The notes beneath the pieces were generated by a model. It saw only the letters and a program-made list of their open reading frames with translations. It ran no database searches and was not told the origin of the DNA. A DNA stretch of 64,000 bases from Lysinibacillus agricola (lineage in GTDB: Bacteria > Bacillota > Bacilli > Bacillales_A > Planococcaceae), in contig NZ_CP067341.1 of the NCBI RefSeq assembly GCF_016638705.1, forward strand, positions 4,281,501-4,345,500, in the 5' to 3' direction. Position numbers and translations under genes: made by a program. This document shows positions 17,937-59,402 of this stretch, piece after piece (positions within the stretch are counted from its first letter, which is position 1; each line of letters begins with the position of its first letter).

Positions 17937-18138
17937 ATCAATTATGCCTCGGCATAATTGCGTCTGGAATCGGCTTTGTGCTTAGGCCTGCACTATGCAG
18001 GTCAGTTAGCCGTTATCGCATGGATGCGATGATTTTAGGCTAACATCCTCTAAGTACTCCTTTCCGATTCCGTGACATCCGCCGGAGGCATTAACTTCTT
18101 TCAGCGGGTGTTTGCACAGCCTGCTGAAAGAAGTTAAT
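17937..18138 (+). repeat. Repeat family A, copy A1 (long form)
   Basis: Begins ATCAATTATGCCTCGGCATA, a near-palindrome with 10-bp arms. Next is helix 2 (GGAATCGG/CCGATTCC) enclosing an insert with hairpins CCTGCA/TGCAGG and ATCGCAT/ATGCGAT, then GTGACATCCGCCGGAGGC, and helix 3 (CTTTCAGC.../GCTGAAAG). It lies between dnaI and the thrS T-box. Confidence 0.85.
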
Positions 18139-18189
18139 TATTATATGAGACAGTATACGCTCGATTGTCGTAAAATGCAACTGTCAATC

Positions 18190-19128
18190 TTACATACGTC
18201 GATTTTTGCCGTGCATTTCAATTGGCTCTGTCAAGGCTTTGACACGTTCCATAATACGTCCAGCCTTCACAACTTCTATGTCACCTTTTTGCGACTGTGC
18301 TAAATGATGCTCTAGTTCATCATATTTAAAATTAGATGTAATGAATGTTGGCAATTGCTCCGCCATGCGGTAATGGAAAATAGTCCCCAAAATTTCATCT
18401 CGCGTCCAAGCGGTCATTGTCTCGGCTCCTAAATCATCAAGCATTAGCACTGGTGCCTTCTTCACATAGTCTAATTTTTCATTCAATGTATTATCGCCAA
18501 TTGCATTTTTCATTTCTCGTAAAAATTCAGGCACGAACACGACTACTGAACGAATTTTGATGGAGGCTAATTCATTAGCAAGTGCTCCTAGTACAAAAGA
18601 TTTCCCTACACCAAATTTCCCGTATAAATAATAACCCTTTGCTGGAAGCTTTCCTGTTTCCAATGTTGTCTTCACAAATTGTGCCGCTTTTTGAGCAATC
18701 ATGACACGAGATTCATCGTCAATGAGTAAATCTTGAATTGTCGCTTGCAGCACATCCTTAGGCATATGCATACTCGCAATCATATTGGTTACATCACGTC
18801 GCTCATCCTCGCGTATCTTTTGCTCACAACGTACATAATCAATTTCAACGGTACTTCTCACTACACGTAAAGTAGGTAAAAAACCTTTTAAGTAGTTTGT
18901 ACAACTTTCCGTATTGTTACAGCCACAGCAGACAGTAGATTGACTAATAAACTCATGGAGCTTCGGTAAATTACGTTCAATTGTTTCATAGCTTAACTCA
19001 TCTGCATGCGCTGCTAAAAATTCTTGCACACGAGGGTTTTCTAAAATTTCTCGACGCATCGTTTCGTAACGTTCTTGAAATGATGGTACATTAATTGCTC
19101 TTTTTAATGGTCCATTAATCTGTTCGAT
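18190..19128 (-). CDS. dnaI: Primosomal helicase loader DnaI (apparent ATC start)
   Basis: AAA+ ATPase that loads the replicative helicase. N-terminal zinc region CCGCNNTESC, Walker A YGKFGVGKS near residues 168-176, Walker B VLMLDDLGAE near 232, arginine-finger side SNFKYDELEHH. Homology to B. subtilis DnaI (311 residues, MEPIGRSLQG...PDFQKRLEQM) continues upstream of the first ATG (19059) through EQINGPLKRAINVPSFQERYETM. The codon aligned with the initiator Met is ATC at 19126-19128, with GGAGGG 9 bases before it; no ATG, GTG or TTG exists in that stretch. From ATC the protein is 312 residues. Either a true AUC start or a base error. Confidence 0.9.
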   Translation of the reverse strand: MEQINGPLKRAINVPSFQERYETMRREILENPRVQEFLAAHADELSYETIERNLPKLHEFISQSTVCCGCNNTESCTNYLKGFLPTLRVVRSTVEIDYVRCEQKIREDERRDVTNMIASMHMPKDVLQATIQDLLIDDESRVMIAQKAAQFVKTTLETGKLPAKGYYLYGKFGVGKSFVLGALANELASIKIRSVVVFVPEFLREMKNAIGDNTLNEKLDYVKKAPVLMLDDLGAETMTAWTRDEILGTIFHYRMAEQLPTFITSNFKYDELEHHLAQSQKGDIEVVKAGRIMERVKALTEPIEMHGKNRRM

Positions 19129-19143
19129 TGTCGTTCACCCTCC

Positions 19144-20511
19144 TTACTTATCACTTTTCCCTAGCATTTCCAATATTTTTTGACGCTCTTGCTCAAAATC
19201 TATCGTGCTTGAAGTGTTATCTTCTTGTTGCTCGTTACGTTTGTAAAACCATTCAGGCACCTTCTCTTCACGTTGATTTCCTGAACGCCCTTTAGCACCT
19301 TGATTACTTTTCCTCGGTGTCTGCGGCTTATTTTTCCACGTAGTGTATTTATCATGCTCCTGGCGTGCTAGCTCCATTGCTTCCTTTGCAGTTTGAATAT
19401 TTTTACGTACCCAATGATCCGCAATCGTTTCCACATATTTTTTAGGTAGCTTCATATCAGTTGTTAACATTACATATTCCAAAAGAGCATTAACAACACC
19501 TACTGGCATTCCATGCTGGACAATTAAGCTTTCAGCAAGCTGAACGGAAGTCTGTAGAGGTTCTTTGCCATTATTGATATCTCGCAGCACTTGGACTGGC
19601 GGAGTCGTCTCTAAATAATGCTGAAGCTCCTGATCCTTTGTTTTTTGTCCTGATTCTTCTAGAGATGATGGCTCAATCACTCTTGCAAGCTTTGGTGGTT
19701 CTTTTGATACCGTTAGCTTATAAAAATCGGCAGCTGCCTTACGTAATCGTTCCAGTGAAATACCTAGGTCATCATCTAATGCAAGAATCACAACTTTTTG
19801 CATATCCAGTGCCGTTAAGCGATATAAAAAAGCAAGTTTTGCTATTGTTTCACGTACCTCAAGTGTTAGTAAACTGGACGGCACTAGCTGCTCCGATAAA
19901 CCCGCCTGCAGTAATTCGAAGTCAAACTGTTCAAAATAAAACGGATATACCTTTTGCTGTTGATCCTTACGACTAGTATCGACTTGTAAATCATCTGGAA
20001 TCTTTGAACTAACAGGCTTAAAAACGTCTATGAAGACACGTGATACATCTTTAAATTCTGCATCTCTTGCAGATGGAATAAAACGCTGACGTAACTTTCG
20101 ATAAGCTTGCTCCCCAATTTTACTAAACAAAAACATCGACAGCAGTGGGTCTTTCATAAAGCTATCTGCATCAAGCGGACGCATCAGCTCATATAAAAAG
20201 CTTCGCTGGTCAGCATCTTCTTTTTTCCATGTGCGTAACAAGCCAATTGCTTCGAGCGCAATACGTGCCTCAAATATTTTACCAATAGGAAGCCCTAGCA
20301 CATTCATTAAATAATAATGTGTCATTTGCTGACTTGGCATTTGCTCAGCTTCTGCCCATAGTGTTAAATAAAGGCTGATTGGCTCCGCTCCAATTAAAGG
20401 CTGATAAAATAGCGTTACTAATTGACGTTCCTGCGTAGAAAGTGCATGAGGTAGGCGAATGTCAAAAGAATCAGCGGGCTGCAATTCCTTATACAAATGG
20501 ATCAACGTCAT
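19144..20511 (-). CDS. dnaB: Replication initiation and membrane attachment protein DnaB
   Basis: 455-residue Firmicute DnaB (not the helicase), which with DnaD and DnaI loads the helicase at oriC and at restart sites. Two DnaD-like winged and DDBH domains: the N-terminal part with RQLVTLFYQPLIGAEPISLYLTLW, and the C-terminal part with AESLIVQHGMPVGVVNALLEYVML and YVETIADHWVRKNI. A polar, charged tail ends KILEMLGKSDK. Lies 15 bp before the proposed dnaI start and 18 bp after nrdR, hence nrdR-dnaB-dnaI as one unit. Confidence 0.92.
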   Translation of the reverse strand: MTLIHLYKELQPADSFDIRLPHALSTQERQLVTLFYQPLIGAEPISLYLTLWAEAEQMPSQQMTHYYLMNVLGLPIGKIFEARIALEAIGLLRTWKKEDADQRSFLYELMRPLDADSFMKDPLLSMFLFSKIGEQAYRKLRQRFIPSARDAEFKDVSRVFIDVFKPVSSKIPDDLQVDTSRKDQQQKVYPFYFEQFDFELLQAGLSEQLVPSSLLTLEVRETIAKLAFLYRLTALDMQKVVILALDDDLGISLERLRKAAADFYKLTVSKEPPKLARVIEPSSLEESGQKTKDQELQHYLETTPPVQVLRDINNGKEPLQTSVQLAESLIVQHGMPVGVVNALLEYVMLTTDMKLPKKYVETIADHWVRKNIQTAKEAMELARQEHDKYTTWKNKPQTPRKSNQGAKGRSGNQREEKVPEWFYKRNEQQEDNTSSTIDFEQERQKILEMLGKSDK

Positions 20512-20529
20512 TCACCCTCTCTGTTTTCC

Positions 20530-21000
20530 CTATGATTTTTGCTCTGTCTGACGTTGAATAATCTCTTTAATCTCTTCAATAAAGACATTGATGTCCTTAA
20601 ATTGGCGGTAAACCGATGCAAAGCGCACATAAGCAACCTCATCAATTTTCGCTAAGCGATCCATCACCATTTCCCCTACATCCTCAGACTGGACTTCAGA
20701 ATTCCCAATGCGACGAAGATCTTTTTCAATAGACATTACTAGTCCCTCAAGTACTTCAAGAGAAACAGGGCGTTTTTCGCAAGCACGAATTAGTCCACGA
20801 AGTACTTTTTCACGACTAAATTCTTCTCGTGAACCTTCCTTTTTCACTACAACTAACGGTGTCTCTTCAATTTTTTCAAACGTTGTGAAGCGGAAGCCAC
20901 ATGACTCACATTCACGACGTCTACGAATTTCTTTATTATCATCTACAGGCCTCGAATCCACAACACGCGTTCCGTTAAATTGGCAAGATGGACATCTCAT
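20530..21000 (-). CDS. nrdR: Transcriptional repressor NrdR
   Basis: 156 residues. N-terminal zinc ribbon with CPSC and CESC pairs (MRCPSCQ...[16 protein letters not shown]), then the ATP-cone from residue 49 with [19 protein letters not shown]. NrdR represses ribonucleotide reductase genes when dATP is high. No nrd genes are in the window, so it acts in trans. The nrdR-dnaB-dnaI order is the same as in B. subtilis; speD is not present next to it. Confidence 0.96.
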
Positions 21001-21206
21001 ATAATTACTCTCCTGATTTCACAACATTTAATATTTCTATTATAACAAATTTCCTATGTGTAAGAAAAGCGCATTCACGCTAGTGTGCTCATGATAAGCC
21101 CTGAAAGGAGAAAGTACAAGCATAGATTGCAATAATTTATCTAAGGAGATCGCAACATACTCTTGATATCAAATACAATACCAATAACGATAAACTATCT
21201 ATTTAA

Positions 21207-21247
21207 TAAAAAAAAGCACATCGAAACCACTAGGATTTCAATGTGCT
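21207..21247 (-). terminator. Terminator of gapB
   Basis: Arms AGCACATTGAAA/TTTCGATGTGCT (one mismatch) and nine T on the minus strand, 11 bp after the gapB stop. Confidence 0.8.
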
Positions 21248-21258
21248 CAGAATAATTT

Positions 21259-22281
21259 TTAAGCGTTAACTGTTTCTAAAGCTTTTGCCACTTTTTTCAC
21301 AAGATCTACAACACGTGCAGAATAACCCCACTCATTGTCGTACCAAGCAAGTACTTTCACTTTGCGGTCACCCATTACCATTGTCGAAAGTCCATCCACT
21401 GTAGAAGAGTAAGTTGTTGTATTGTAATCAGAAGATACTAGAGGCTCAACTGAGAAGTTTAAGATACCTTTCATTGGACCTTCAGTAGCAGCTTTCACAA
21501 ATGCAGCATTGATAGAATCTACTGTTACATCTGTATTTAAATCAACTACAAGGTCAACTAATGATACGTTTGGTGTTGGAACACGAAGTGCCATACCGTG
21601 AATTTTGCCTTCTAATTCTGGTAATACCAATTTCAAAGCTTTGGCAGCACCTGTAGATGTTGGAATGATTGATTGTGCGCATCCACGTGCACGACGTAAA
21701 TCTTTATGTGGATTGTCTAGATTCTTTTGGTCATTTGTATAAGCGTGAACTGTTGTCATTAATCCGCTTTCGATACCAAATGTGTCATTTAATACTTTAG
21801 CAACTGGTGCTAAGCAGTTTGTTGTACAAGAAGCATTTGAAATAACATCATGTTTTGCGATATCAAGTTTCTCATCATTTACACCTAAAACAATTGTTAC
21901 GTCCTCGTTTTTACCAGGTGCTGTTAAGATCACTTTCTTTGCGCCTGCTTCTAAGTGCATTGCTGCTTTTTCACGATCATTAAATTTACCAGTTGCTTCA
22001 ATAACGATATCCACACCCATTGTTGCCCATGGTAATTTTAATGGGTCGCGTTCGCTAATAATTTGAACACGTTTACCATTTACAATTAAAGCATCGCCTG
22101 CTGGTTCAATCGTACCTTCGAATGTTCCGTGATTTGTGTCATACTTAATCAAATGTGCTAACGTTTCAGCTGGATAGCTCGCGTTAATCGCAACGATATT
22201 TAAACTTTCTTGTACGATCGCTTGGCGGAAAACCATACGTCCGATACGCCCGAAACCATTAATAGCAACTGATACTGTCAT
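21259..22281 (-). CDS. gapB: Glyceraldehyde-3-phosphate dehydrogenase, gluconeogenic GapB type
   Basis: 340 residues, the GapB length. Rossmann motif INGFGRIGRMVFRQA at the N-terminus, catalytic Cys in NASCTTNCLAPVAKVL, and AYTNDQKNLDNPHKDLRRARG. Where glycolytic GapA has Asp (VNDL) for NAD ribose, this protein has INAS, which fits NADP preference and the gluconeogenic direction. Position between the replication genes and coaE is that of gapB in B. subtilis. A 14-bp palindrome in the 5' UTR may take part in control. Confidence 0.93.
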   Translation of the reverse strand: MTVSVAINGFGRIGRMVFRQAIVQESLNIVAINASYPAETLAHLIKYDTNHGTFEGTIEPAGDALIVNGKRVQIISERDPLKLPWATMGVDIVIEATGKFNDREKAAMHLEAGAKKVILTAPGKNEDVTIVLGVNDEKLDIAKHDVISNASCTTNCLAPVAKVLNDTFGIESGLMTTVHAYTNDQKNLDNPHKDLRRARGCAQSIIPTSTGAAKALKLVLPELEGKIHGMALRVPTPNVSLVDLVVDLNTDVTVDSINAAFVKAATEGPMKGILNFSVEPLVSSDYNTTTYSSTVDGLSTMVMGDRKVKVLAWYDNEWGYSARVVDLVKKVAKALETVNA

Positions 22282-22297
22282 TTATAAAATCCTCCCG

Positions 22298-22311
22298 TGA
22301 GTACGTACTCA
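22298..22311. promoter_or_regulatory. 14-bp perfect palindrome in the gapB leader
   Basis: TGAGTACGTACTCA reads the same on both strands and ends just before the gapB ribosome site (GGGAGG). It could be an operator for a gluconeogenesis repressor such as CcpN, or a hairpin close to the ribosome site; I cannot tell which. Confidence 0.4.
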
Positions 22312-22492
22312 TATTAATTATATACTTTATGCTGATTAGTATAACACAATTTTAAAAAAGATGAACATTATATATTCATAATATAAAAGTTCTTATTTTC
22401 TGAAAAATAAAATCGCCTAAATTAGTCCTTATTATGGTATAAATCCACAAAAAAATGCATAGCAAAGTGTTCTTGTCACGCATCCGTATTGT

Positions 22493-22545
22493 TGAATATA
22501 ATGTCAATGAAATTAATGTGTCATATTAAATAAAGTATGGCTCTT
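22493..22545. repeat. Repeat family C, copy C1 (tail only)
   Basis: Contains TATAATGTCAATGAAATTAA and TCATATTAAATAAAGTATGG, the reverse complement of the tail of copy C3. It abuts family B copy B2. Confidence 0.6.
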
Positions 22546-22557
22546 CGGCAGCGAGGG

Positions 22558-22776
22558 GTTGATTTCCGTTCCGGCTGGGCGCTTTGTTGCTGCCGCTACG
22601 CTTTCGCACAGAGCAAAGCTTCCTGGGGGCGTCCGATGAGCCGCTTCGCTGCGCTCCAGGGTCTCGGGCCAACACGATGTTGGTCACGGAGGCGTTATCA
22701 CAGGATGTGATGCTTTTAGCCTCCGTTCCTCTATTGCTGATCCCCGAGGAGTCGCCCAGCCTCCACTCCAATCAAC
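22558..22776. repeat. Repeat family B, copy B2 (complete)
   Basis: Ends are imperfect 24-bp inverted repeats: GTTGATTTCCGTTCCGGCTG at the left and the complement of GTTGATTGGAGTGGAGGCTG at the right, both followed by GGGCG. The inside holds GCTACGCTTTCGCACAGAG, GTTGGTCACGGAGGCG and the hairpin ATCACAGGATGTGAT. No ORF with a ribosome site. Confidence 0.85.
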
Positions 22777-22973
22777 TAATTCACATAGCATGTATCCTCT
22801 GACATGTCGCTATAATTTAAGTGATAAAACGTAACTTTTGCTAAATGATTTTATCTGTGCGACAGCAACAACGACTATACAATCACGTCACTGTTATAAG
22901 TCTATTCTGTTCAATTAAGGTGCGTTGTTATAGGTCCAATGCATAAAATTTATAAAAGTTCTACGCTATTGCT

Positions 22974-23076
22974 GATTTCCGTTCCAGGCTACTCGACTCC
23001 CGTGGGAAAGCGAGTAGCCTGGAACGGAAATCACCCAATGTGACACCATAATTTCATTGACATAATAGTTTTTCAA
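22974..23076. repeat. Repeat family C, copy C2 with a 22-bp perfect palindrome
   Basis: Arms 22974-22995 and 23011-23032 are exact complements over 22 bases (starting GATTTCCGTTCC) around a 15-base loop. The tail ends TTGACATAATAGTTTTTCAA. The palindrome arm shares TGATTTCCGTTCC with the family B left end. Confidence 0.8.
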
Positions 23077-23141
23077 AGAAAGTAATGCGTAGCAATATGT
23101 CATTGCTACGCATCGATTAATTTTACGGATTATTAATTTGA

Positions 23142-23735: not shown

Positions 23736-23748
23736 AGTTAAATCCCCT

Positions 23749-24621: not shown

Positions 24622-24633
24622 TTTAACCCCTCC

Positions 24634-28150: not shown

Positions 28151-28515
28151 GTTGACCTTCGTTCCGACCGGGCGACTCCTTGGGGATTAGCGTCAAGGGC
28201 ACTGAAAAACTAAAGAAATTCATTTTTTTATATTATAAATCTGTCTTTTGTTGGATTTAGAAACTCAAAAAAGTCGATTTGCATCACATTTTTTGTGGCA
28301 AATCGACTTTTTCAGTGCCCTCGATTAGCGTCACAGATGAGACCCTGGAACGAGCCGGCAGAGGAACGAAGGCTAAAAACATCACGTCCTGTGATAACGC
28401 CTTCGTGACCAACATCGTGTTGGCCCAAGCGGCTCATTGGACGCCCTCAGGAAGCTTTGCTCTGCGCGAAAGCGAAGCGTCAGCGGCAAAGCGCCCAGTC
28501 GGAACGGAAATCAAC
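28151..28515. repeat. Repeat family B, copy B3 (reverse orientation, interrupted)
   Basis: Reads from the right end (GTTGACCTTCGTTCC...GGGCGACTCC) to the left end (GGGCGCTTTG complement, ...GGAACGGAAATCAAC). It is split at 28194 by a 128-bp insert; removing the insert and one copy of GATTAGCGTC restores a family B sequence. Confidence 0.85.
28195..28322. mobile_element. MITE-like insertion with 14-bp inverted ends and 10-bp target duplication
   Basis: Terminal repeats AGGGCACTGAAAAA (28196-28209) and its exact complement (28308-28321) enclose a non-coding body. Direct copies of GATTAGCGTC flank it at 28185-28194 and 28323-28332. The right half folds into a hairpin with AAAAAGTCGATTTGC arms. 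No transposase frame is present, so movement would need an enzyme from elsewhere. The parent IS family is not identified. Confidence 0.82.
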
Positions 28516-28600
28516 CACACGTAATAGTGACGAGCCTTAAAACCTATAACCAATATGAAAAATATCATACAAAACACCTTGCTAGTTTCATGGATAGTGT

Positions 28601-31928: not shown

Positions 31929-32013
31929 GATTAATTTCACCTTGGCATAATTGCGTCAGGAGGCATTATCTTCATTCAGTAGGTGTTTGGACACCTACTG
32001 AATGAAGATAATG
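31929..32013 (+). repeat. Repeat family A, copy A2 (short form)
   Basis: Keeps the first hairpin (TTTCACCTTGGCATAATTG, weakened), GCGTCAGGAGGC and helix 3, which here is a perfect 23-bp stem (31964-31986 with 31991-32013, loop TTGG). Helix 2 is absent. It lies about 60 bp upstream of the lrgA-like start. Confidence 0.8.
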
Positions 32014-36363: not shown

Positions 36364-36490
36364 ATCAATTATGCCTCGGCATAATTGCGTCAGGAATCGG
36401 CTTTGTGCAAGCACAAAGCACTCCTTTCCGATTCCGTGACATCCGCCGGAGGCTTCTTTCAGCGGTTGTTTAAACACCCACTGAAAGAAA
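36364..36490 (+). repeat. Repeat family A, copy A3 (compact form)
   Basis: Clearest copy: hairpin 1 ATCAATTATGCCTCGGCATA, helix 2 GGAATCGG/CCGATTCC enclosing CTTTGTGC/GCACAAAG, linker GTGACATCCGCCGGAGGC, helix 3 CTTTCAGCGG/CCCACTGAAAG. Its end is about 30 bases upstream of the mdh start codon, on the 5' UTR side. Confidence 0.88.
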
Positions 36491-36649: not shown

Positions 36650-37912
36650 TTATAGGTTTTTGATTAATTCAGTAGCGAATTCTGAACATTTTACTTCTTT
36701 AGCGCCGTCCATTAAACGAGCGAAGTCGTAAGTTACAACTTTAGAAGAAATTGTTTTCTCTACAGATTTAGTAACCATGTCAGCTGCTTCTTGCCATCCT
36801 AAGTGTTCAAGCATTAATACACCTGAAAGTAATACTGAAGATGGGTTTACTTTATCTTGACCAGCATATTTTGGAGCTGTACCGTGAGTAGCTTCGAAGA
36901 TCGCGTGTCCAGTTACATAGTTAATGTTTGCGCCTGGAGCGATACCGATACCACCAACTTGTGCAGCTAATGCGTCAGAAATATAGTCACCGTTTAAGTT
37001 CATTGTAGCTACTACATCGAACTCAGTTGGACGAGTTAAGATTTGTTGTAAGAAGATATCAGCGATAGAATCTTTAACTAAGATTTTACCAGCTGCTAAA
37101 GCGTCAGCTTGCGCTTTGTTTGCTGCTTCTTCACCTTGTTCAGCTTTAATTGCATCATATTGATTCCAAGTGAAAGTTTGATCAGCAAATTCTTTTTCAG
37201 CTAATTCATAACCCCATTTTTTGAATCCACCTTCAGTGAATTTCATGATGTTACCTTTGTGTACTAAAGTAACAGATGGGCGTTTATGTTTAATTGCATA
37301 TTCGATAGCAGAACGTACTAAACGCTCAGTACCTTCTTTAGATACAGGTTTTACACCGATACCAGAAGTTTCTGGGAAGCGGATTTGATTAACACCAAAT
37401 TCAGTTTGTAGGAAGTTGATGATTTTTTGTGCTTGTTCTGAACCAGATTCGAATTCAATACCAGCGTAGATGTCTTCTGTGTTTTCGCGGAAGATAACCA
37501 TTTCAACGTCTTCTGGGCGTTTAACTGGAGAAGGTACTCCATCAAAGTGACGTACTGGACGTAAGCATACATATAGGTCAAGCTGTTGACGTAATGCTAC
37601 GTTTAGAGAGCGGATACCACCACCGATTGGAGTAGTAAGAGGACCTTTGATTGCGATTAAGTATTCGTTAATTTTGTCTAAAGTTTCTTGTGGTAACCAT
37701 TCACCAGTTTGGTTGAATGCTTTTTCACCAGCTAAAACTTCTAACCATTCGATTTTCTTTTCACCGTTGTAAGCTTTTTCTACTGCTGCGTCGATTACGC
37801 GTGATGCTGCAGCCCAAATATCTGGACCGATTCCGTCACCTTCGATGAAAGGAATCACCGGATTGTTTGGTACATTAAGTACGCCATTTTCAACTACAAT
37901 TTTGTTTGACAT
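36650..37912 (-). CDS. icd: Isocitrate dehydrogenase (NADP type)
   Basis: 420 residues; oxidative decarboxylation of isocitrate to 2-oxoglutarate. [11 protein letters not shown] at the N-terminus, substrate motif [14 protein letters not shown], phospho-site region [14 protein letters not shown], metal/cofactor region [28 protein letters not shown], and HGTAPKYAG for NADP. Starts with AGGAGG upstream. 80 bp after citZ, with a perfect 11-bp hairpin in the gap. Confidence 0.97.
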
Positions 37913-40896: not shown

Positions 40897-41082
40897 ATCA
40901 ATTATGCCTCGGCATAATTGCGTCCGGAATCGGCTTTGTGCTTAGGCCTGCACGATGCAGGTCAGTTAGCTGTTATCGCATGGATGCGATGATTTTAGGC
41001 TAACATCCTCTAAGAATTCCTTTACGATTCCGTGACATCCGTCGAAGGCCATAACTTCTTTCAGCGGCCACCCGGAAGTTAA
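40897..41082 (+). repeat. Repeat family A, copy A4 (long form)
   Basis: Same plan as A1, including the CCTGCA/TGCAGG and ATCGCAT/ATGCGAT hairpins, with GTGACATCCGTCGAAGGC replacing the usual linker. Helix 3 is damaged (TTTCAGCGGCCACCCGGAAG). Its end overlaps the pyk stop codon. Confidence 0.85.
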
Positions 41083-42839
41083 AGAACACTTGCATGCCCT
41101 TTGTATATAACTCCAGTTTCAGCATCCATCGTAATTTCTTGATCGTGGCGGATCAATGTAGTGGCTTCTTTTACTCCGACGATAACAGGAATGCCAAGGC
41201 TCAGCCCTACAACCGCAGCATGACTTGTAAGCCCGCCTTCCTCTGTAATCAGACCGATGCAGTTTTCAATTGCTGGCATCATATCGCGATCTGAACCAAC
41301 CGTTACTAAAATGCATCCGTCTGTATCATACGCTAGTGCCTCTGCTGCATTTTTTGCAACAACTGTTTTACCTACTACTGAAGCCTTACCGATACCTTGA
41401 CCACGGGCTAGTAAATCTCCGATGATGTGTACCTTCATTAAGTTAGTAGTACCTGCTTCACCTACTGGTACACCCGCTGTAATAACAACTGCATCACCGT
41501 GTGTTACAAAGCCATGCTTTAAGCTTTCATCAACAGCTAGCTCTAAAATTTCATCTGTTGTCGTTACACGTTGACATACAACTGGGTATACACCCCAAAC
41601 TAATGTTAATGTGTTAGCTGTATTGGCAGAGCCTGTTACAGCGACAATTGGTACACCTGGGCGATATTTTGCAATCATTCTAGCTGTGTTACCACTTTCT
41701 GTTGGTGCTAGTACTGCTTTCACGCCTAAGTTAATCGAAGTGTAAGCTACTGCCTGAGAAATTGCCTCAGTCATATTTGCCTCTTTTTCACGACTACGTG
41801 TAGAGACAACCGCCTTATAATCTAATGAATTTTCTGTACGCTGTGCGATTTTATTCATTGTTTGTACAGACTCTACTGGATAAAGTCCCGCTGCAGTTTC
41901 ACCAGACAGCATAATCGCATCTGTACCATCGATAATTGCGTTTGCTACGTCACTTGCCTCTGCTCGCGTTGGACGTGGATTACGCTGCATCGAATCTAAC
42001 ATTTGTGTAGCTGTAATAACTGGTTTACCTACTTGATTACATTTTAAAATTAATTTCTTTTGTACAAGTGGTACTTCTTCTGCCGGAATTTCTACACCAA
42101 GGTCACCGCGTGCTACCATTAATCCATCTGAAACTAAGATGATTTCATCGATATTATCGACACCCTCTTGGTTCTCGATTTTCGGGATAATTTGAATATG
42201 GCTACCACCATTTTGTTCAAGCAATTCTCGAATCTCTAGTACATCCTTTGCTCGACGAACGAATGAGGCTGCAATAAAATCAACGCCTTGCTTAATACCG
42301 AATAGAATGTCTTGGGCATCTTTTTCTGTAATTCCTGGAAGCTGTACAGAAACACCTGGCACGTTAACACCCTTTTTATTTTTTAAGACACCTGCATTTT
42401 CAACTATCGTATGAATAAGACCTTTTTCCATATCAGTTGCTAATACACGTAATTGAATAAGACCATCATCTAATAAAATAATTGAGTTTTGCTCAACGTC
42501 CTCGATTAAGTGATCATATGTGACAGAAAAGCTTGTCTCTGTTCCTTCGACTTCGGTCATTGAGATATCAATCACTTGCCCTGCCGCTAAATGTAATTCC
42601 CCATTTTTCATATTATGTGTACGAATTTCAGGGCCTTTTGTGTCGAGTAAAATACCAACTGGCTTGCTTAATTTCTGTGCTACTTCGCGAATTAAATTAA
42701 TACGTCCTTCATGCTCTTCATGAGAACCATGTGAAAAATTTAAGCGGGCAACATTCATACCTGCTTCAATTAGTTTCTCTAAAGTTTCTGGTGACTCACT
42801 TGCTGGACCAATTGTACATACGATTTTTGTTTTTCTCAT
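41079..42839 (-). CDS. pyk: Pyruvate kinase with C-terminal PEP-utiliser domain
   Basis: 586 residues. Makes pyruvate and ATP from phosphoenolpyruvate. N-terminal [16 protein letters not shown], metal/K+ site ARLNFSHG, catalytic KIENQEGV, and [12 protein letters not shown]. The extra domain from about 475 carries [21 protein letters not shown], as in Bacillus and Geobacillus enzymes. 27 bp after pfkA, same operon. The stop codon lies at the edge of a family A repeat, so the repeat's arrival may have set the present 3' end. Confidence 0.96.
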
Positions 42840-44087: not shown

Positions 44088-44480
44088 GTTAATTTCCGTT
44101 CCGCCTGTACGCTTTTCATGGGCATCCGATGAGCGTTTAGAGAAACAAATGGTTTCTGTGCGAAAGCGTAGTGCTAACGTAGCGACAGCAACAAATGGTT
44201 TCCGGGCGAAAGCGTAGTGCTAACGTAGCGACAGCAACAAATGGTTTCTGTGCGAAAGCGTAGTGCTAACGTAGCGACAGCAACAAATGGTTTCTGTGCG
44301 AAAGCGTAGTGTTAACGTAGCGACAGCAACAAATGGTTTTTGTGCGAAAACGAGCGCGGGAACACGACGTTGGTCACGAAGGCGTTATCACAGGACGTGA
44401 TGTTTTTTAGCCTCCGTTTCTATACAACATTCGTTCCAATTTTTTCCCTAGGGAGTTGCCCAGTCTCCACTCCAATCAAC
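44088..44480. repeat. Repeat family B, copy B4 (expanded)
   Basis: Begins GTTAATTTCCGTTCCGCCTG and ends CACTCCAATCAAC, with the GTTGGTCACGAAGGCG core. Its left half is enlarged by a 46-bp tandem array. Between accA and pfkA. Confidence 0.8.
44143..44350. repeat. 46-bp tandem array inside B4, about 4.5 units
   Basis: Units begin at 44143, 44189, 44235, 44281 and 44327, exactly 46 bases apart, each starting CAACAAATGG and containing GCGAAAGCGTAGTGCTAACG and TAGCGACAG. Units differ at one to three bases. 46 is not a multiple of 3 and there is no supporting ORF. Confidence 0.9.
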
Positions 44481-44548
44481 TAACTAACAAAATCTTTACA
44501 ATTCTTGTTACTGACCACTTTTAATGAAAAAACATAAAATATGTGAAT

Positions 44549-46367: not shown

Positions 46368-47009
46368 CTAAATGCTTTGTACAGTCTTCATCCACTGCTC
46401 GTAAGCTTTAAATGCTTCTTTTTCATAGCCAAGCTGCATCGATTTCAACATAGTTTGAATGATTAATTTTTCATCTTCAGTTGAGTTTCGATTTAAACGG
46501 TCACCATCATAAGCTGCTAACTGAAACCAGATTTTCAATGAAAGACGATTTCCTGACGTGATTAATATTTCTCGTAAAACATCCCGACAATTAATCGTAC
46601 CTTCTATCTCTAGCTTTACAAAAAAACTGTCCCACACAGGTAGTGTTCGCAGAGTCTCTGTACAACTTATTACGCGAATGGCTTCCATTTCATGAATTTG
46701 TCGCGTTAATTCGACATCCTTTTTCGATTTTTCATCTTCTAATATAAACATCGACAGTATTTCTACGAGCTGATGCTTATGTGTGGAAGCTAGAAACGTA
46801 CCTCCACCATGTCTCGTTTCAATAAGACCTAACAATTCTAAGCTTCGCAATGCCTCTCTCACAGAGGATCGCCCGACACCTAGACGCTCTGAAAGGACTC
46901 GTTCGGAAGGTAGCTTTTCGCCAGCTTGTATTTTTTCCATTTTAATAAGTTGACGTAATTGTTGGACGATTTCTAAAAACACTTTCTTTTGTTCGGTTTT
47001 TGTATCCAT
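46368..47009 (-). CDS. GntR/FadR-type transcriptional regulator
   Basis: 213 residues. Winged helix at about 10-80 with AGEKLPSERVLSERLGVGRSSVREALRSLELLGLIETRHGGGTFL, the GntR signature. The C-terminal helical part is FCD-like and slightly short. It precedes accD by 21 bp, so it may be co-transcribed with accDA and respond to an acyl-CoA or organic acid; that link is inference. A family A repeat ends 17 bases upstream of its start codon and next to its ribosome site GAGGAG. Confidence 0.82.
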   Translation of the reverse strand: MDTKTEQKKVFLEIVQQLRQLIKMEKIQAGEKLPSERVLSERLGVGRSSVREALRSLELLGLIETRHGGGTFLASTHKHQLVEILSMFILEDEKSKKDVELTRQIHEMEAIRVISCTETLRTLPVWDSFFVKLEIEGTINCRDVLREILITSGNRLSLKIWFQLAAYDGDRLNRNSTEDEKLIIQTMLKSMQLGYEKEAFKAYEQWMKTVQSI

Positions 47010-47026
47010 ACGATCAACTCCTCTTA

Positions 47027-47220
47027 ATCAATTTCGCCTTGGCGTAATTGCGTCGGATTTTTGAATTGTGCCCGCACAATTCATTCCTTTCAAAATCCGT
47101 GACATCCGCCGGAGGCTTTATCTTCATTCAGTAGCTGTTTGGATACCTTTGAAAAGGAACTACATCCACATTCATACACCACCTTCAGAAGTGGGAGTCT
47201 TTTACTGAATGAAGATAAAA
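47027..47220 (+). repeat. Repeat family A, copy A5 (divergent, compensated)
   Basis: Hairpin 1 reads CAATTTCGCCTTGGCGTAAT; helix 2 is GGATTTTTG/CAAAATCC around GAATTGTGC/GCACAATTC, all different in sequence from A3 but still paired. Linker GTGACATCCGCCGGAGGC is conserved. Helix 3 is a 17-bp stem (47117-47133 with 47203-47219) enclosing extra sequence. Confidence 0.85.
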
Positions 47221-47280
47221 GTGGTCTGGCCACTTTTCAACATTGACTATAGCTTACAAAAAAACTGTTAAAAAGTAAAG

Positions 47281-50542: not shown

Positions 50543-50746
50543 GTTGATTTTCCGTTCCGTCTGGGCGCTTTGTAGCTGTCGCTTTGCTTTCGCTACAGAA
50601 AACATTTGTTGCTGCCGCTACGCTTTCGCACAGATAAAACATTACCGATGTTGGTCACGAAGGCGTTATCACAGGACGTGATGGTTTTAGCCTTTGTTCC
50701 TCTATTGCTAATCCCCTAGGAGTGCCCAGCCTCCACTCCAATCAAC
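50543..50746. repeat. Repeat family B, copy B5 (complete)
   Basis: Starts GTTGATTTTCCGTTCCGTCTG, contains GCTACGCTTTCGCACAGATA and GTTGGTCACGAAGGCG, ends CTCCACTCCAATCAAC. It fills most of the gap between dnaE and nrnA; nothing else is seen there. Confidence 0.85.
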
Positions 50747-50811
50747 TTATATATGGCATACGTTTAACAAATGTCATCCACAACTTTTGGTGATGAGCCA
50801 AATATTCATGT

Positions 50812-52156: not shown

Positions 52157-52345
52157 ATCAATTATGCCTCGGCATAATTGCCGCTGACGCTTCGCTTTCG
52201 CGCAGATAAACAATGCGTTGGAATCGGCTTTGTGCCTAGGCCTGCACGATGCAGATCAGTCGTTTTCGCATGGATGCGATGATTTTAGGCTAACATCCTT
52301 TTTTAGAACTCCCTTCCGATTCCGTGACATCCGTTGAAAGAAGTG
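52157..52345 (+). repeat. Repeat family A, copy A6 (long form with a family B module)
   Basis: Hairpin 1 as in A3, then an insert GCTGACGCTTCGCTTTCGCG and CAGATAAACAATGCG resembling family B, then helix 2 with the CCTGCA and ATCGCAT hairpins as in A1 and A4. Ends GTGACATCCGTTGAAAGAAG; helix 3 is lost. Confidence 0.83.
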
Positions 52346-53853: not shown

Positions 53854-54537
53854 TTAGGAACAGTTTACTTTTTCACCCGCTTTTAAAATTTGAACCTCTG
53901 AATTTTGCACTAAATCTGCAAAATTTTGTGGATTCTGCTCGATTGGAGGGAATGTATTGTAATGTACTGGTACGACAATTTTCGGCTTCAAAAATGAGAC
54001 TGCACAAGCAGCGTCTTCTGGGCCCATTGTGAAATTGTCACCAATTGGTAAAAACGCAATATCAATAGGATGGCGTTCTCCAATTAATTTCATATCACTA
54101 AACAAAGCTGTATCTCCTGCATGATAGATTGTTAATCCTTCGATAAATAATAAAATTCCAGCCGGCATTCCCATATAAATGATTTCATTATTTTCAGTTA
54201 CATATGACGAACCGTGGAAGGCTTGAGTAAATTTCACTTTACCAAAATCAAATTCCTTGGCCCCGCCTATATGCATTGGATGCGCTTTCACTCCTTGCCA
54301 AGAAATCCAATTAGCTAGCTCATTTGGTGCAATGACAAGCGCATCTTTTTTCTTTGCAAGCTCCACTGTATCCCCAACATGATCATTATGTCCATGTGTA
54401 AGTAAAATAATATCTGGTGCTTCATCAGCAACCTTCAAATCTGTTTGCCCATTCCCATTAATGAATGGATCAATCAATATTGTTTTTCCATTTGATTGAA
54501 TTTTGACAACTGAATGACCATGATAACTAATTTCCAT
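53854..54537 (-). CDS. ytkL: UPF0173 metal-dependent hydrolase (YtkL-like)
   Basis: 227 residues, metallo-beta-lactamase fold. [13 protein letters not shown] at the start, metal motif [12 protein letters not shown] (HxHxDH), [12 protein letters not shown] and a late His in [10 protein letters not shown]. Hydrolase of unknown substrate. ATG 54537 has GGAGG 8 bases upstream; the longer frame is rejected. Divergent from the M24 gene and downstream of ytoI's start, as ytkL lies near ytoI in B. subtilis. Confidence 0.9.
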
Positions 54538-54773
54538 ATAAGTTTCCTCCCAGCAGTACATATTGTGCTACATCATTTTTATTCGCTACCCATGCGATTT
54601 TTCCCTTTTTTTGATATGCTTGTACAGAGAATAATAGATTCTTTCCCAACAGAGCTATACCTAGTCCTTGTTAGGAAACAATTTTTCATTCGATTGAAGC
54701 CCATGCCGGGTAGGCTATAAATTTAGCTAAGCACGTGAAAATTTTTTCAATGCTATAAGAGGAGGAACTGTTT

Positions 54774-55862
54774 ATGTCAAAGGTTGAAGAAATTCAAAAC
54801 TATTTACAACAAAACCAAATTGATGCCGCTTTCGTAACAACACCAGACAATGTTTTTTATGTTTCAGGCTTTAAAAGTAATCCACATGAGAGATTACTAG
54901 GTGTGGTAATTTTTAAAGAGGCGGAACCTTTTTTAATTTGCCCACAAATGGAAATCCCAGATGCGAAGGATGCAGGTTGGCCTTATGAAGTCATTGGTCA
55001 CCAAGATACTGAAAATTCAATGGAAGTTCTTGCACAAGCAATAAAGGCTCGTAATGTTAACCCACAAACTTTTGCCATTGAAAAAGCTCACCTCATTGTA
55101 GAGCGTTTAGAAGCTCTACAACAATCGTTCCCGCAGGCAAACTTTGTCCGTCTAGACGAAAAAATCAATGCTATGCGAGTAATTAAAGATGAAAATGAAT
55201 TAGAAAAATTACGTAAAGCTGCTGAACTAGCTGATTATGCTATTGAAATTGGCTGTAAAGAAATCGCTGAAGGCAAAACAGAAATGGAAATCTTAACAGC
55301 GATAGAAAATGCTATTCAAGATAAAGGCTGCAAAATGTCCTTTGAGACAATGGTATTAAGTGGTCCAAAAACAGCCTCTCCACACGGTACACCAGGTGCT
55401 CGCAAAATCGAAAAAGGCGATATGGTATTATTCGATCTTGGCGTAATTTACGACGGTTATTGCTCTGACATTACGCGTACGGTTGCCTATGGTGAACCTA
55501 GTGAGGCACAAAAGGAAATCTACAACACGGTACTATCTGCTAACACAAATGCAATTGCAGCAGTAAAACCAGGTGTTCGTGCAATGGATTTAGATAAAAT
55601 TGCTCGTGATACTATTTCTGAAGCAGGCTATGGTGAATATTTCACACATCGACTCGGTCATGGACTCGGCATTTCTGTACATGAATTCCCATCTGTTACA
55701 GGTGCAAATGAAATGACTATGGAGGAAGGCATGGTCTTCACAATTGAGCCAGGTATCTATAAATCTGATGTGACAGGCGTCCGTATTGAGGATGATGTAG
55801 TAGTAACTAAAGACGGAGTAGAAGTACTAACAAAATTCCCGAAAGATTTAATTGTACTGTAA
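54774..55862 (+). CDS. Aminopeptidase P family protein (M24B Xaa-Pro peptidase)
   Basis: 362 residues. N-terminal creatinase-like domain (1-130), then the pita-bread catalytic domain with all five metal ligands: Asp in LFDLGVIYDGYCSDITRT (two Asp), His in HRLGHGLGISVHEFP, Glu in FTIEPGIY and Glu in VRIEDDV. Removes N-terminal residues before proline. AGAGGAGGAA precedes ATG. Single gene with a hairpin downstream. It could be a Xaa-Pro dipeptidase rather than aminopeptidase P; they are not separable by eye. Confidence 0.9.
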   Translation: MSKVEEIQNYLQQNQIDAAFVTTPDNVFYVSGFKSNPHERLLGVVIFKEAEPFLICPQMEIPDAKDAGWPYEVIGHQDTENSMEVLAQAIKARNVNPQTFAIEKAHLIVERLEALQQSFPQANFVRLDEKINAMRVIKDENELEKLRKAAELADYAIEIGCKEIAEGKTEMEILTAIENAIQDKGCKMSFETMVLSGPKTASPHGTPGARKIEKGDMVLFDLGVIYDGYCSDITRTVAYGEPSEAQKEIYNTVLSANTNAIAAVKPGVRAMDLDKIARDTISEAGYGEYFTHRLGHGLGISVHEFPSVTGANEMTMEEGMVFTIEPGIYKSDVTGVRIEDDVVVTKDGVEVLTKFPKDLIVL

Positions 55863-55894
55863 TTGAAAATATTTACTCAAGTAAAGTGAACTTT

Positions 55895-55928
55895 AATCAG
55901 TGGGGATTTTCTTCATCCTCCACTGATT
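55895..55928 (+). terminator. Hairpin after the M24 peptidase gene
   Basis: Arms AATCAGTGG/CCACTGATT; weak T-tract afterwards, so termination is probable but not certain. Confidence 0.6.
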
Positions 55929-56008
55929 ATTAGTCTTCACCAGTCTAGCTTTTACGGGCAGTTAATCTCCACCTTAGTACAGATTAAATTACTGCCCGTT
56001 AATGCAGG

Positions 56009-57899
56009 ATCGAGTAGGAGGGAGTGATTAACTCCCGACCTCTCCAACCACCGTACGTACGGATCCGTATACGGCGGTTCAATTAAGATGAATAACGCAA
56101 GATTTCATAACGAGCTTGCAGACTTTTGAGCCCTTGGTTACTCCAATAAGAGTTACCAAGGGTTCTGTGTAATATTGGACTTTTCGAAATACGCCAGTAA
56201 CTCTTGCGAGTATTGCCCCATTCGTAAGCCTTCCAGTCTGGAACTCCTAAGCGAATGAGGTTGCGCACTTTCGTACGAGGTTTCTTCCAATCCTTCCATA
56301 AGCACATGCGAAGTCTTCTTCTAATCCATCCATCCAGTGATTCAAATATTGATTTCGTATCCGCTAATGCAAAGTAGCCACACCACCCAATTAAGTATTG
56401 ATTCAATTGTTGAATTCGGTACTCCATTGGAAATGGCTTCTTTCTAGCTGTTAATTCCCGAATTTTGTTCTTCATTCGCTTTATGCTCTCTTTCGCAATT
56501 CGAACTTGTGGTTCTTTGCGGGAGGTAAAGCTAAATCCTAGGAATTTACGTTGCCAGGGACGAGCCACTGCGGATTTCTTCTCATTTATTTTTCAATCGT
56601 AGCGTCTTCTCAATAAAAGTTTTGATACTTGCCATCACTCGTTCTCCTGCTCGTTTTGTTTTCACATAAATATTGCAGTCATCGGCGTAACGGACAAATT
56701 TATGACCACGTTTCTCTAATTCTTTGTCTAATTCATCCAGTACAATGTTTGAGAGAAGTGGGCTCAGTGGTCCCCCTGGGGTGTTCCTTCATCTGTATCA
56801 TAAACGACACCATTTATCATGACACCCGATTGTAAGTATCTACGAATCAGCTTGAGTAGAGGTTTATCAGAAATTTTCTTTGCTAATGTACTCATTAGAC
56901 GGTCATGGTTTACTTTGTCGAAGAATTTCTCTAAGTCCATATCTACTACCCAGCGGTATCCTTCTTTTATATAGCCTTTGGCTTCTCGGATTGCATCGTG
57001 AGCACTTCGTTTTGGTCGAAATCCGTAACTATGATTCGAGAAGTTTGGGTCGTATAGGTTGGATAGCACTTGGGCAATCGCCTGTTGAATGAGTCGGTCT
57101 GTCACGGTTGGGATTCCTAATAGTCGCACACCGCCGTCAGGTTTCGGGATTTCGATTCTGCGAACTGGTTGTGGTTGGTAGGTTCCCTCAAGAATTTGTT
57201 TCTTAATCGTTAGCCAGTTTTCGACTACATGCTGTCGTAGGAATTTTACGGGCATTTTGTCTACTCCATGACTCCCTTTGTTTCGTTCCACCCTGTTTGA
57301 GTGCGAGAAGCAGATTCTCCCGTGATAATATTTGATTCATTAACATCTCGTTCGACTCCTCCGTGAATAGCTTGTCTTCTTATAACAGTTTCTACTGCAC
57401 CCGCTCAATGTCCCTCATGGGATTCACCATTACCTCCATTAAGTCGGTCCTTCTGGATTTTTCTGTGTTTATCATAGAAAAACTGCATGCCAAGGGCTAT
57501 TCTCTCCGAATTGTTCGGTCCTTCCCATTCATTCTAGAAGTGAATGGTACTATGACCTCTGCTGACTTCTGATGGTTCAGCTACCTATCGCTAAGTAGGT
57601 TACAAAGTGTACTTTGCGTTTCCATCAGACCTCCCCGGGTAAGCGCATGCACTTTCACACCATCTATCCGCCTCATTTACTCGATATGACCTTCGACAGA
57701 AAGGACTTTGTGTTGTTATGCACACTCATCCAATCATACCTAGCCTTATATGAGATTCGTGTTCCTCGGACCGGTGTTTTGCCTCCAGCTTCCTTCAGAT
57801 TCCGCGTCGCCACGGACACCCTTGCTCTTGGCTAACCTCTACTTCTGTCTTCGAGGTTTGGGACTTGCACCCTATAGTTCATACGCATGCCGGGCGCAC
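56009..57899 (-). mobile_element. Group II intron, class C-like
   Basis: Minus-strand 5' end GTGCGCCCGGCATGCG, followed by GGTGCAAGTCCC and AAGGGTGTCCGTGGCGAC, is the domain I pattern of class C introns such as the Oceanobacillus one. Near the 3' end, domain V arms (ACCGCCGTATACGG, GTACGTACGGTGG) and domain VI are followed by ...CTACTCGAT as the 3' end. The 5' splice site comes right after the T-tract of the M20 gene's terminator, the usual class C target. It encodes a maturase with three frameshifts. Confidence 0.85.
56083..57346 (-). pseudogene. ltrA: Intron-encoded reverse transcriptase/maturase, three frameshifts
   Basis: Reverse transcriptase and maturase for intron splicing and retrohoming, about 420 residues if frames are joined. 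ATG 57346 opens MLMNQILSRENLLLALK, which shifts into NKGSHGVDKMP at a CCC run (57291-57293). Next part has DGGVRLLGIPTVTDRLIQQA and ends GTPQG at a C run (56772-56776, one base short). Then YADDCNIYVKT (catalytic YADD) runs to a T run at 56589-56593, after which KFLGFSFTSRKEP and the maturase domain with YLIGWCGYF follow. All breaks are one base long in homopolymers; motifs are otherwise intact. Confidence 0.88.
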
Positions 57900-57901
57900 A
57901 T

Positions 57902-57938
57902 AAAAAGGAAGCACCATTATAGCAGTGGTGCTTCCTTT
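57902..57938 (-). terminator. Terminator of the M20 gene and intron target
   Basis: Perfect 13-bp arms AAAGGAAGCACCA/TGGTGCTTCCTTT then T on the minus strand; the intron begins three bases after. Confidence 0.88.
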
Positions 57939-57952
57939 CGTTATGTCATTTA

Positions 57953-59137
57953 TTATTTTTCCAAATAATCAAGAGTTGCCTGTCCTAAAACATTTGCAGC
58001 AATGCGAAGCGAGCGTTCGTCAATATCAAATTTGGGATGGTGATGAGGATATACTTCCGTCCAAGAAGGGTTTTGTGCACCTACAAAGAAGAATGCACCT
58101 GGTTTTTCTTCTAAATAGTAAGCAAAATCTTCTCCACCCATCGTAGGATCGACAATTTCAACAGCTTCGACAATAGATACCTTTTTGGCTGCCTCGATAA
58201 CATGCTCAGTTTCTGCTGGATGATTCACAACAGGTGGATAGCCTCTACGGTATTCATATTCATACTCAGCCTTTGTTAAATAGCAAGTAGCTATTAGTAC
58301 TTCTTCAATTTCTTGTTCAAGGAGATCACGCTCTTCGTTATGGAATGTACGAACCGTTCCTTTCATATACACTTTATCTGCTATAACATTAAATGGGTTG
58401 AGTGCTTCAATATGTCCAATTGACACTACAGCTGGGCGTAGTGGATTTACTCGGCGTGCTACAAGCTGTTGTAAATTCGTAATAAATTGTGCAGCTAGTA
58501 CAATCGAATCTTTCGTTTCATTTGGTGTAGAGCCATGCCCACCCTTCCCTTTGATTGTAATATCAATAGAATCTGCCGCAGCCATCAATGGTCCAGATGC
58601 AATTTGCACTTTACCAAGTTCTGCAGGAGCCCATAAATGCGTTCCGAAAATAACATCGACACCTTCTAGACAGCCATCCTCAATCATAGACTTTGCTCCA
58701 CCCGGCGCTATTTCTTCTGCGTGTTGATGGATGAAAACAATCGTTCCTGCTAAATCTGCTTGCATTTTGTTTAATGCCTTCGCTAATACAAGTAGTGTTG
58801 CTGTATGACCATCATGCCCACAAGCGTGCATTCGACCCTTGATTTTAGATTGGAATGGTAGCCCTGTCTCTTCCGTAATTGCTAATGCATCGAAATCTGC
58901 TCGAAGTGCCACTGTTTTACCTGGTTTACCCCCAATAAGCTTTGCGACAACTCCATTACCCCCTACGCCTTCTCGCACCTCATGTCCTAATGCACGATGA
59001 AACGCAGCAATTGTTTTAGGGGTTTCTACCTCTTCAAAAGAAAGCTCTGGATTTTCATGAAAATGACGACGCAGTGTAATCATTTCCTCCTCAAATTGTT
59101 CAAGTAATGTTGAAAGTTGTACATGTTGTGTAGTCAT
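57953..59137 (-). CDS. M20D amidohydrolase (N-acyl amino acid / aminobenzoyl-glutamate type)
   Basis: 394 residues. Metal and catalytic motifs: LRADFDALAITEETGLPF, MHACGHDGHTA, HQHAEEIAPGGAK (Glu pair), and a late His in MGGEDFAYYLEEKPG. Such enzymes split N-acyl amino acids, hippurate or p-aminobenzoyl-glutamate. The gene follows AbgT transporter on the same strand, so import and hydrolysis of an acyl-amino acid is likely. It might also supply the deacetylase missing from the sulfur operon, though 50 kb away. A family A repeat ends about 20 bases before the start, next to ribosome site AGGAGGGG. Confidence 0.88.
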   Translation of the reverse strand: MTTQHVQLSTLLEQFEEEMITLRRHFHENPELSFEEVETPKTIAAFHRALGHEVREGVGGNGVVAKLIGGKPGKTVALRADFDALAITEETGLPFQSKIKGRMHACGHDGHTATLLVLAKALNKMQADLAGTIVFIHQHAEEIAPGGAKSMIEDGCLEGVDVIFGTHLWAPAELGKVQIASGPLMAAADSIDITIKGKGGHGSTPNETKDSIVLAAQFITNLQQLVARRVNPLRPAVVSIGHIEALNPFNVIADKVYMKGTVRTFHNEERDLLEQEIEEVLIATCYLTKAEYEYEYRRGYPPVVNHPAETEHVIEAAKKVSIVEAVEIVDPTMGGEDFAYYLEEKPGAFFFVGAQNPSWTEVYPHHHPKFDIDERSLRIAANVLGQATLDYLEK

Positions 59138-59156
59138 TCAAACCCCTCCTATTATT

Positions 59157-59402
59157 ATCAATTATGCCTCGGCATAATTGCGTCACTCAGTCGTGTGTTG
59201 TTGCTGTCGTTTCGCTTTCGCACAGATAAATTACCACAGAACATGGCGTTCTTAGATTGAGTTCCTCTATTTCAGCAAATGTCTTTTGTACCGAAAGCGT
59301 AGCGACAGGTACAGGTGTTTGAACACCCGCTGATGAGTAACTTAAATCCGCATTCATCTCACCACCTATAGTGGTGGGATTCTTCTGCTTAATGAAGATA
59401 AA
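59157..59402 (+). repeat. Repeat family A, copy A7 (chimeric)
   Basis: Hairpin 1 as in A3, then TTCGCTTTCGCACAGATAAA (family B module), GGTGTTTGAACACCC hairpin, and an end with CACCACCTATAGTGGTGGGA and AATGAAGATAAA, like the interior and end of A5. Its end runs into the last codons of the AbgT gene. Confidence 0.8.

Follow-up and report, generated by a model that had tools for sequence, protein, structure and literature searches.

The 64,000-nt window analyzed here, positions 4281501-4345500 of the Lysinibacillus agricola genome (contig NZ_CP067341.1), holds seven copies of a repeat, family A, which is built from hairpin 1, helix 2 with an inner hairpin, a linker and helix 3. Family A has no coding capacity. 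We consider it probable that it is a non-autonomous mobile DNA element resembling the palindrome-associated transposable elements (PATEs) of Haloquadratum walsbyi, transposed as a single strand by a Y1-type enzyme acting in trans. The mobile nature of the DNA is indicated by empty orthologous sites, a short target and an orientation that follows the replication strand. On these grounds the repeat unit, for which the initial annotation had suggested selection on an RNA or cruciform structure, is a transposable element, and the family appears to be a new and widespread PATE-like one that works like IS200/IS605/PATE elements.

Abundance and Distribution

The genome is a single contig of 5.29 Mb, in which a covariance model yields 125 matches at E<=1e-3, of which 111 are full-length and do not overlap. 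Common element lengths are about 120-140 or 180-200 nt. At E<=1e-8, at least one match occurs in 77 of 151 genomes of the bacterial family and in 13 of 19 genera, own genome included; as this family-wide scan used strict filters and scored few candidates per genome, its copy numbers are minimum values. Copy A3 of the window, used as query in a plain DNA search, gave matches in 27 of 61 genomes, all within the genus. Among relatives, the repeat occurs in Lysinibacillus xylanilyticus and related strains, and the gene at 36650-37912 of the window has 98% identity in the congener G024. Among the papers listed on Lysinibacillus repeats and miniature inverted-repeat transposable elements (MITEs) and on Bacillaceae-1 RNA, from a library poor in subscription journals, no title or opening of an abstract describes the element.

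Empty Sites, Ends and Target

Orthologous regions of five congeners were compared over the window and those of two over 400 kb more, and two further sites at genome positions 2275165 and 3066050 were added. Sixteen sites have an empty ortholog (14 tabulated sites plus these two); those left out of the 44 comparisons are filled-versus-filled differences, repeat sites, or cases with no single clean junction. With ^ marking junctions, sites read left^ATCAATT...GAAG^target, such that the element extends from ATC to GAAG. For example, the empty sequence GCATTTG^TTATTTATT stands opposite GCATTTG^ATCAATT...GATG^TTATTTAG in G024, and at 2275165 three other genomes read ACATATT^TTAAAGC. None of the 16 empty sites reveals a target-site duplication, some junctions being ambiguous by 1-2 bases. 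Terminal inverted repeats are absent, and hairpins lie near both ends. A Helitron-like reading of the junction (A^TC...) was rejected, because the A arrives with the element at most empty sites. We infer that the polymorphism reflects insertion; an empty site could instead result from precise excision, and the element is mobile either way.

The first four target bases are TTAA at seven sites, ATAA at five, and GTAA, TTAT, TTAG and AGAA at one each; NTAA is thus the target in 13 of 16 empty sites. Of the 14 tabulated sites, 3 lack a canonical 5' arm of helix 3; in all 11 others, the base of this arm that adjoins the junction is the complement of the base with which the empty target begins. In a parse of helix 3 in 114 copies, of which a few are still parsed wrongly, flank and arm form a complementary pair at this position in 103 (flank T with arm A 77/85, flank A with arm T 23/25, flank G with arm C 3/3, flank C 0/1). 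Type 1 copies, with a CTTCTTTCAG arm, are flanked by TTAA in 72 of 90 cases, type 2 copies, with a CTTCATTCAG arm, by ATAA in 19 of 24, and three copies with the arm TTTAC sit at GTAA.

Orientation Relative to Replication and Genes

Orientation was taken on the strand that reads 5'-target-helix 3 ... hairpin 1-3'. In the own genome, 94 of the 111 copies point one way relative to replication (Fisher 1e-13; 92 copies if the boundary is placed at 2.5 Mb). The GC skew flips at about 2.7-3.0 Mb: in the 0.5-Mb bins sampled, its mean is positive throughout up to 3.0 Mb and negative beyond. It is the lagging-strand template that carries the target 5' of the element. Among the matches listed for three congeners, 41 of 44 (G001), 40 of 48 (G007) and 30 of 38 (G005) point the same way; these are 44 of 77, 48 of 90 and 38 of 80 matches, respectively, with eight other scanned genomes outside the count, and the replichores are contig halves, not checked by skew. 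Orientation is a bias, not a rule.

Genes are biased as well, with 78% on the minus strand in the G000 region, and between codirectional genes 29 of 30 copies stand in gene sense. Copies between convergent or divergent genes follow replication in 14 of 17 cases. A second count, which includes orthologs and is therefore non-independent, gives 11 of 12, and in it one head-on codirectional site follows replication against its genes. The first classification relies on a crude caller of open reading frames (ORFs) and covers 47 of the 111 copies; the others lack flanking sequence or have no gene called on one or both sides. Replication looks like the better predictor of orientation, to which transcription or purifying selection adds.

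Proposed Mechanism and Search for a Mobilizing Enzyme

On the putative active strand, minus in the window, the element reads 5'-TTAN^CTTC-helix 3-GCCTCCGGCGGATGTCA-helix 2-GACG-hairpin 1-AT^-3'. While the lagging-strand template is single-stranded, the element would fold, and a HUH (Y1-type) transposase supplied in trans would recognize the end hairpins. The excised single strand would then rejoin another lagging-strand template immediately 3' of a TTAN target; the target bases would pair with NTAA inside helix 3, the arm acting as a putative guide. After insertion, template switching in replication and/or selection for mobility would keep the arms matched and thereby give rise to compensatory changes, while inner modules would be exchanged between copies, probably by recombination.

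A number of observations weigh against such a pathway. The Y1 domain PF01797 has no match in the own genome, nor in G003, G022, G024 and G028, all four rich in copies judging by the candidates counted in the plain DNA search, and G001, G007, G017 and G025 contain partial or stop-bearing matches only. The TnpB domain PF07282 likewise has no match in the own genome. Among the matches listed, no element end stands beside 30 Y1 loci, except for one separate repeat near an insertion sequence relic; a match of family A to a known insertion sequence end, which would have counted against the initial annotation, was likewise not found in this comparison, which comprises the 30 Y1 loci of the genus only. 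An autonomous copy with element ends was seen in none of 10 of the 18 long intervals between hairpin 1 and helix 3, these 10 consisting of ordinary genes between separate elements or of repeat arrays (72 of 259 hairpins have no helix-3 end to measure to). Plasmid and phage records gave no match to the element; one viral contig carries hairpin 1. At head-on codirectional gene sites of the first classification, all three copies follow the genes and not replication. In IS200/IS605 elements, the hairpin foot has the guide on its 5' side (PMC6006769), whereas the complementary bases of family A lie 3', on the far side of helix 3. Finally, the three TTTAC/GTAA copies do not cluster among 16 copies of RF01690 type (see below), which fits rewriting of the arm after insertion better than an inherited guide, even if all three belong to that type.

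Since no enzyme was found, membership in the IS200/IS605/PATE group is not established, and we restrict ourselves to stating that family A works like these elements. The same puzzle is posed by the Haloquadratum PATEs, which show strain-specific insertions although the IS200-type transposases are broken (PMC3119063). Eight Lysinibacillus genomes have another type of Y1, about 190-205 aa long and by our guess RAYT-like; it was rejected as mobilizer because it does not track copy number. It is also conceivable, if rather unlikely, that family A stands for a class of single-strand mobile DNA, spread over the whole bacterial family, in which arm and host target form one hairpin, with a target that a short internal sequence can program and that is rewritten after insertion, the mover being either outside the known Y1 enzymes or replication machinery alone.

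The Seven Copies of the Window

All seven copies lie on the minus strand, which is taken as the transposed or sense strand.

A1, 17937..18133, minus: hairpin 1 17937-17960; helix 2 17966-17981 with 18064-18071; RF01690-bearing inner module 17982-18053; linker 18072-18089; helix 3 18090-18133; target flank TTAA from 18134; ortholog empty in G025
A2, 31930..32007, minus: short form, hairpin 1 fused to helix 3, without helix 2 and linker; target flank ATAA from 32008; empty in G024 (ATAA) and G025 (ATTA)
A3, 36364..36490, minus: minimal form; hairpin 1 36364-36387; helix 2 36393-36435; linker 36436-36453; helix 3 36453-36490; target flank TTAA from 36491; empty in G007, filled in G022, G024, G025 and G028
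A4, 40897..41084, minus: 3' boundary approximate, the given end including flank; hairpin 1; helix 2 with RF01690-bearing inner module 40942-41013; linker 41032-41049 (2 mismatches); helix 3 truncated (3' arm)
A5, 47027..47214, minus: type 2 (ATTCAG arm); hairpin 1 47027-47050; helix 2 47055-47098; linker 47099-47116; helix 3 47118-47214 with internal insert; target flank ATAA from 47215; empty in G025 and G007
A6, 52157..52343, minus: hairpin 1; 35-nt insert 52181-52215; helix 2 with RF01690-bearing module; partial linker; helix 3 with the 3' arm end only, 5' arm absent; flank TGAA from 52344; empty in G007 (TTAA)
A7, 59157..59397, minus: mosaic of hairpin 1, other hairpin modules and a helix-3 insert with a CACCACCTATAGTGGTG hairpin at 59360-59376; no helix 2, no linker; flanks without an anchor in the relatives' stretches compared

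The initial annotation had assigned one plan to all seven. Hairpin 1 is indeed present in each, beginning at 31930 instead of 31929 in A2, while helix 2 and linker are absent from A2 and A7, and other copies depart from the plan by the insert and missing helix-3 5' arm of A6, the short 3' arm of A4, the extra helix-3 insert of A5 (shared by A7) and the RF01690 module in three. The linker is exact in three of the seven and occurs with two mismatches in one more (0 of 100 shuffles gave four matches). A model of 142 positions recovers five of the seven copies at E<=1e-6, A3 and A5 being part of its training set, and misses A6 and A7.

In line with the initial annotation, which knew of no named family with this layout, no Rfam family spans the whole element. 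One module is known, however, since the Rfam scan places RF01690 (Bacillaceae-1) on the minus strand inside helix 2 of A1, A4 and A6. Above the gathering score it covers the inner module only, never the whole element; the other four copies stay below threshold, and five of the eight matches in the window lie outside family A. Presence of this module varies between orthologs. At site 36364, G022 alone of five filled genomes has it, and at site 17937 it is found in G000 and G022, not in G024. At G000 4072703, three species share common junctions around a different interior. Judging from such sequence comparisons, inner modules have likely been swapped between copies by recombination.

The insert in the helix-3 3' arm at 47140-47200 and 59340-59397 carries a CCACC...GGTGG hairpin, which also follows helix 3 in copies from other genera (L375, L376, L381, L384). 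It may be an alternative long form of the element end; the Rfam scan of 47000-47260 gave no match. A5 adjoins the start of the ORF 46368-47009. By eye, hairpin 1 abuts an apparent Shine-Dalgarno sequence of the next gene at 47027 and 59157 of the window and at L004 (genome 3066050), where the TTTAA target may double as stop codon for the gene upstream. By landing between stop codon and ribosome site, the element could leave operons unharmed.

Structure and Covariation

As DNA, the intact copy L003 folds with z = -12.6 and -13.4 on the two strands, and A3 with -7.2 and -5.8. Hairpin 1 is a 9-bp stem beside CGTC or TGTC, the GTC of which takes part in the basal pairing of helix 2 as well. Of 192 copies, 125 have the linker TGACATCCGCCGGAGGC and 85 the helix-2 bulge AACTCCTTT in exact form. 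Pseudoknot pairing between CTCC of the bulge and GGAG of the linker (e.g., 36420-36453) is possible; it is perfect in 115 of 192 copies and compensated in only 2.

The both-sided changes between A3 and A5 that had been reported for helix 2 and its inner hairpin are present in the sequence. Hairpin 1 departs from what was reported: there is one changed pair, TA to CG, and A5 has one unpaired T.T position. Once further copies were collected and a covariance model was built, the claim of a conserved structure with compensatory change received strong support. We aligned 29 copies, namely 27 from a set of 28 (one without the bulge was omitted) and two window copies; 96.3% of pair cells are paired, a percentage flattered by the choice of the 28-copy set by both core arms and linker. 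Both-sided changed cells number 44 versus 9.0 +- 3.0 in shuffled alignments, and the pairs with such change are distributed unevenly (11/22 in helix 3, 4/9 in helix 2, 2/8 in its inner hairpin, 1/9 in hairpin 1).

The excess persists across genera. A cross-genus alignment, with 40 copies from other genera picked among the best matches (45 matches kept, 44 distinct rows), shows 43 of 48 pairs altered on both sides and 297 both-sided cells, as against 77.8 +- 7.7 in shuffled and 16-54 in slid alignments; it was fitted to the model, which leans its numbers toward structure, and holds five low-scoring reverse or overlapping matches and three same-site pairs. The helix-3 arms differ widely in sequence across genera, and a stem of at least 16 positions, few mismatches included, is retained in 33 of the 40.

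From covariation of this kind, the initial annotation had suggested selection on structure and not just copying. The structure is conserved, but that conclusion does not follow from covariation alone. At site 2275165, the six empty genomes all read TTAA (TTAAA in three), while the site here is filled, with TGAAA as flank and TTTCA as arm. A base of the host flank and its partner in the arm differ together, and the six empty genomes suggest the direction of change. Such a co-change of flank and arm is achievable by template switching in the hairpin, which is able to produce double changes of this type (PMC8794818), and covariation by itself therefore does not imply RNA selection.

One alternative regards family A as a functional structured RNA, either cis-regulatory or a small RNA (sRNA), which was spread by mobility and then kept, with covariation reflecting selection on RNA. 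The very strong covariation around a conserved unpaired linker and bulge agrees with this, as do the gene-sense orientation between codirectional genes (29/30) and the hairpin 1 ends that lie at most 35 nt from a downstream ORF start (10 of 39; 14 of 35 in a second count). Along this line, A3 sits between two metabolic genes on the same strand, of isocitrate-dehydrogenase type and lactate/malate-dehydrogenase type. However, the nine flanking proteins scanned have unrelated functions, sites are polymorphic for emptiness, and modules are lost or swapped at orthologous sites. Furthermore, G.T cells exceed A.C cells on the antisense strand, the opposite of what selection on gene-sense RNA would leave, with 305:189 in model-fitted alignments, which favour G.T, and 16:8 in a symmetric scan of hairpin 1. 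These counts give no sign of selection on gene-sense RNA, and we consider this explanation improbable.

We likewise assign a low probability to mutation as a sufficient cause, in which template switching between arms (quasipalindrome correction) rewrites arm or host flank with no structural selection. Besides 2275165, two sites speak in its favor: at 3066050 the arms read GTTC/GAAC here, whereas G025 has the 5' arm CTTC and G024 the 3' arm GAAG, and at 17937 G024 has CATC/GATG. Mutation alone leaves the conserved unpaired linker and bulge, the precise insertion and the choice of target unexplained. Uncompensated one-sided changes also persist, in G022 and G028 at 17937 and in the 3' arm of G025 at 3066050. 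Template switching can act together with transposition of a mobile element, the reading we prefer, and since the unpaired linker is conserved across genera, selection for mobility probably acts as well.

Comparison with Known Systems

Among known systems, the PATEs (PMC3119063) share with family A the lack of terminal inverted repeats and of target duplication, palindromes near the ends, a size too short for a transposase, a short targeting sequence at one end and the insertion of other small repeats into palindromes. Family A differs in being bacterial, in its three helices with a conserved linker, and in a helix 3 that reaches the junction, where the target can pair; no IS605-type transposon with matching ends was found. 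With IS608 and ISDra2 of the IS200/IS605 group, family A has in common end hairpins, a tetranucleotide target at one end, an orientation on the lagging-strand template (reported for IS608/ISDra2) and base interactions between target and element, which in family A are putative (PMC6006769), but it has no tnpA.

Two further systems resemble parts of the element. The Bacillaceae-1 RNA RF01690 (PMC2864571), which covers 67 positions only, overlaps helix 2 of A1, A4 and A6 at its inner module. CGTC-tagged repetitive extragenic palindromes (REPs; PMC3733652) are 8-9 bp palindromes with a CGTC or TGTC tag at one end and a short tail, often occur as dimers, and have no dedicated transposase known; in family A, hairpin 1 is followed by CGTC. 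Unlike these REPs, family A is much larger and its GTC pairs at the helix 2 base; the likeness considered here is that of stem and tag sequence.

BOX elements of the pneumococcus are modular, nested and non-autonomous interspersed repeats with strong folds (PMC3049150), and a MITE-like or BOX-like origin, with movement by a DDE transposase or another double-strand system, would account for the same modular, nested, non-autonomous and intergenic nature of family A. Another repeat family of the genome (see below) moreover resembles an element with terminal inverted repeats and a duplication of 7-8 bp, at one site and by eye. In BOX, however, terminal inverted repeats have been likened to those of insertion sequences, and family A has none; nor does it show target duplication at its 16 sites, and its replication-strand bias is strong, rendering this origin very unlikely. 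Finally, repeats of ancient chance or assembly origin that neither function nor move, to which the many truncated copies might be ascribed, can practically be dismissed in view of 111 copies in a one-contig genome, the presence in 13 genera and the empty sites, which refute them.

Other Repeats in the Window

A second intergenic repeat family (GGTTGATTTCCGTTCC...AATCAAC) occupies 22480-22800, 28340-28540, 15480-15640, 44100-44500 and 50620-50780 and also carries RF01690. It is this family that seems by eye to have, at one orthologous site outside the window, ends like terminal inverted repeats (GGCTCATCACC-like). A 46-bp tandem array (GTGCGAAAGCGTAGTGCTAACGTAGCGACAGCAACAAATGGTTTCT) is located at 44141-44324, and related units of 36-46 nt (GCTGTCGCTTCGCTTTCGCACAGA) are found, sometimes in tandem, within several copies of family A. 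On the minus strand, group II introns are matched at 57518-57602, 57644-57816 and 56009-56079, within 55990-57820 and beside the ORFs 56083-56568 and 56764-57291.

Significance

Family A explains a class of intergenic hairpins that is abundant in an environmental family of Bacilli, and reveals that RF01690, an sRNA family of Rfam, occurs as a module within mobile DNA. It also provides a natural case in which strong covariation, usually taken as a mark of RNA selection, involves host flanking DNA. If the arm does serve as a guide, family A would be a bacterial single-strand element with visible natural retargeting, to TTAA, ATAA and GTAA.

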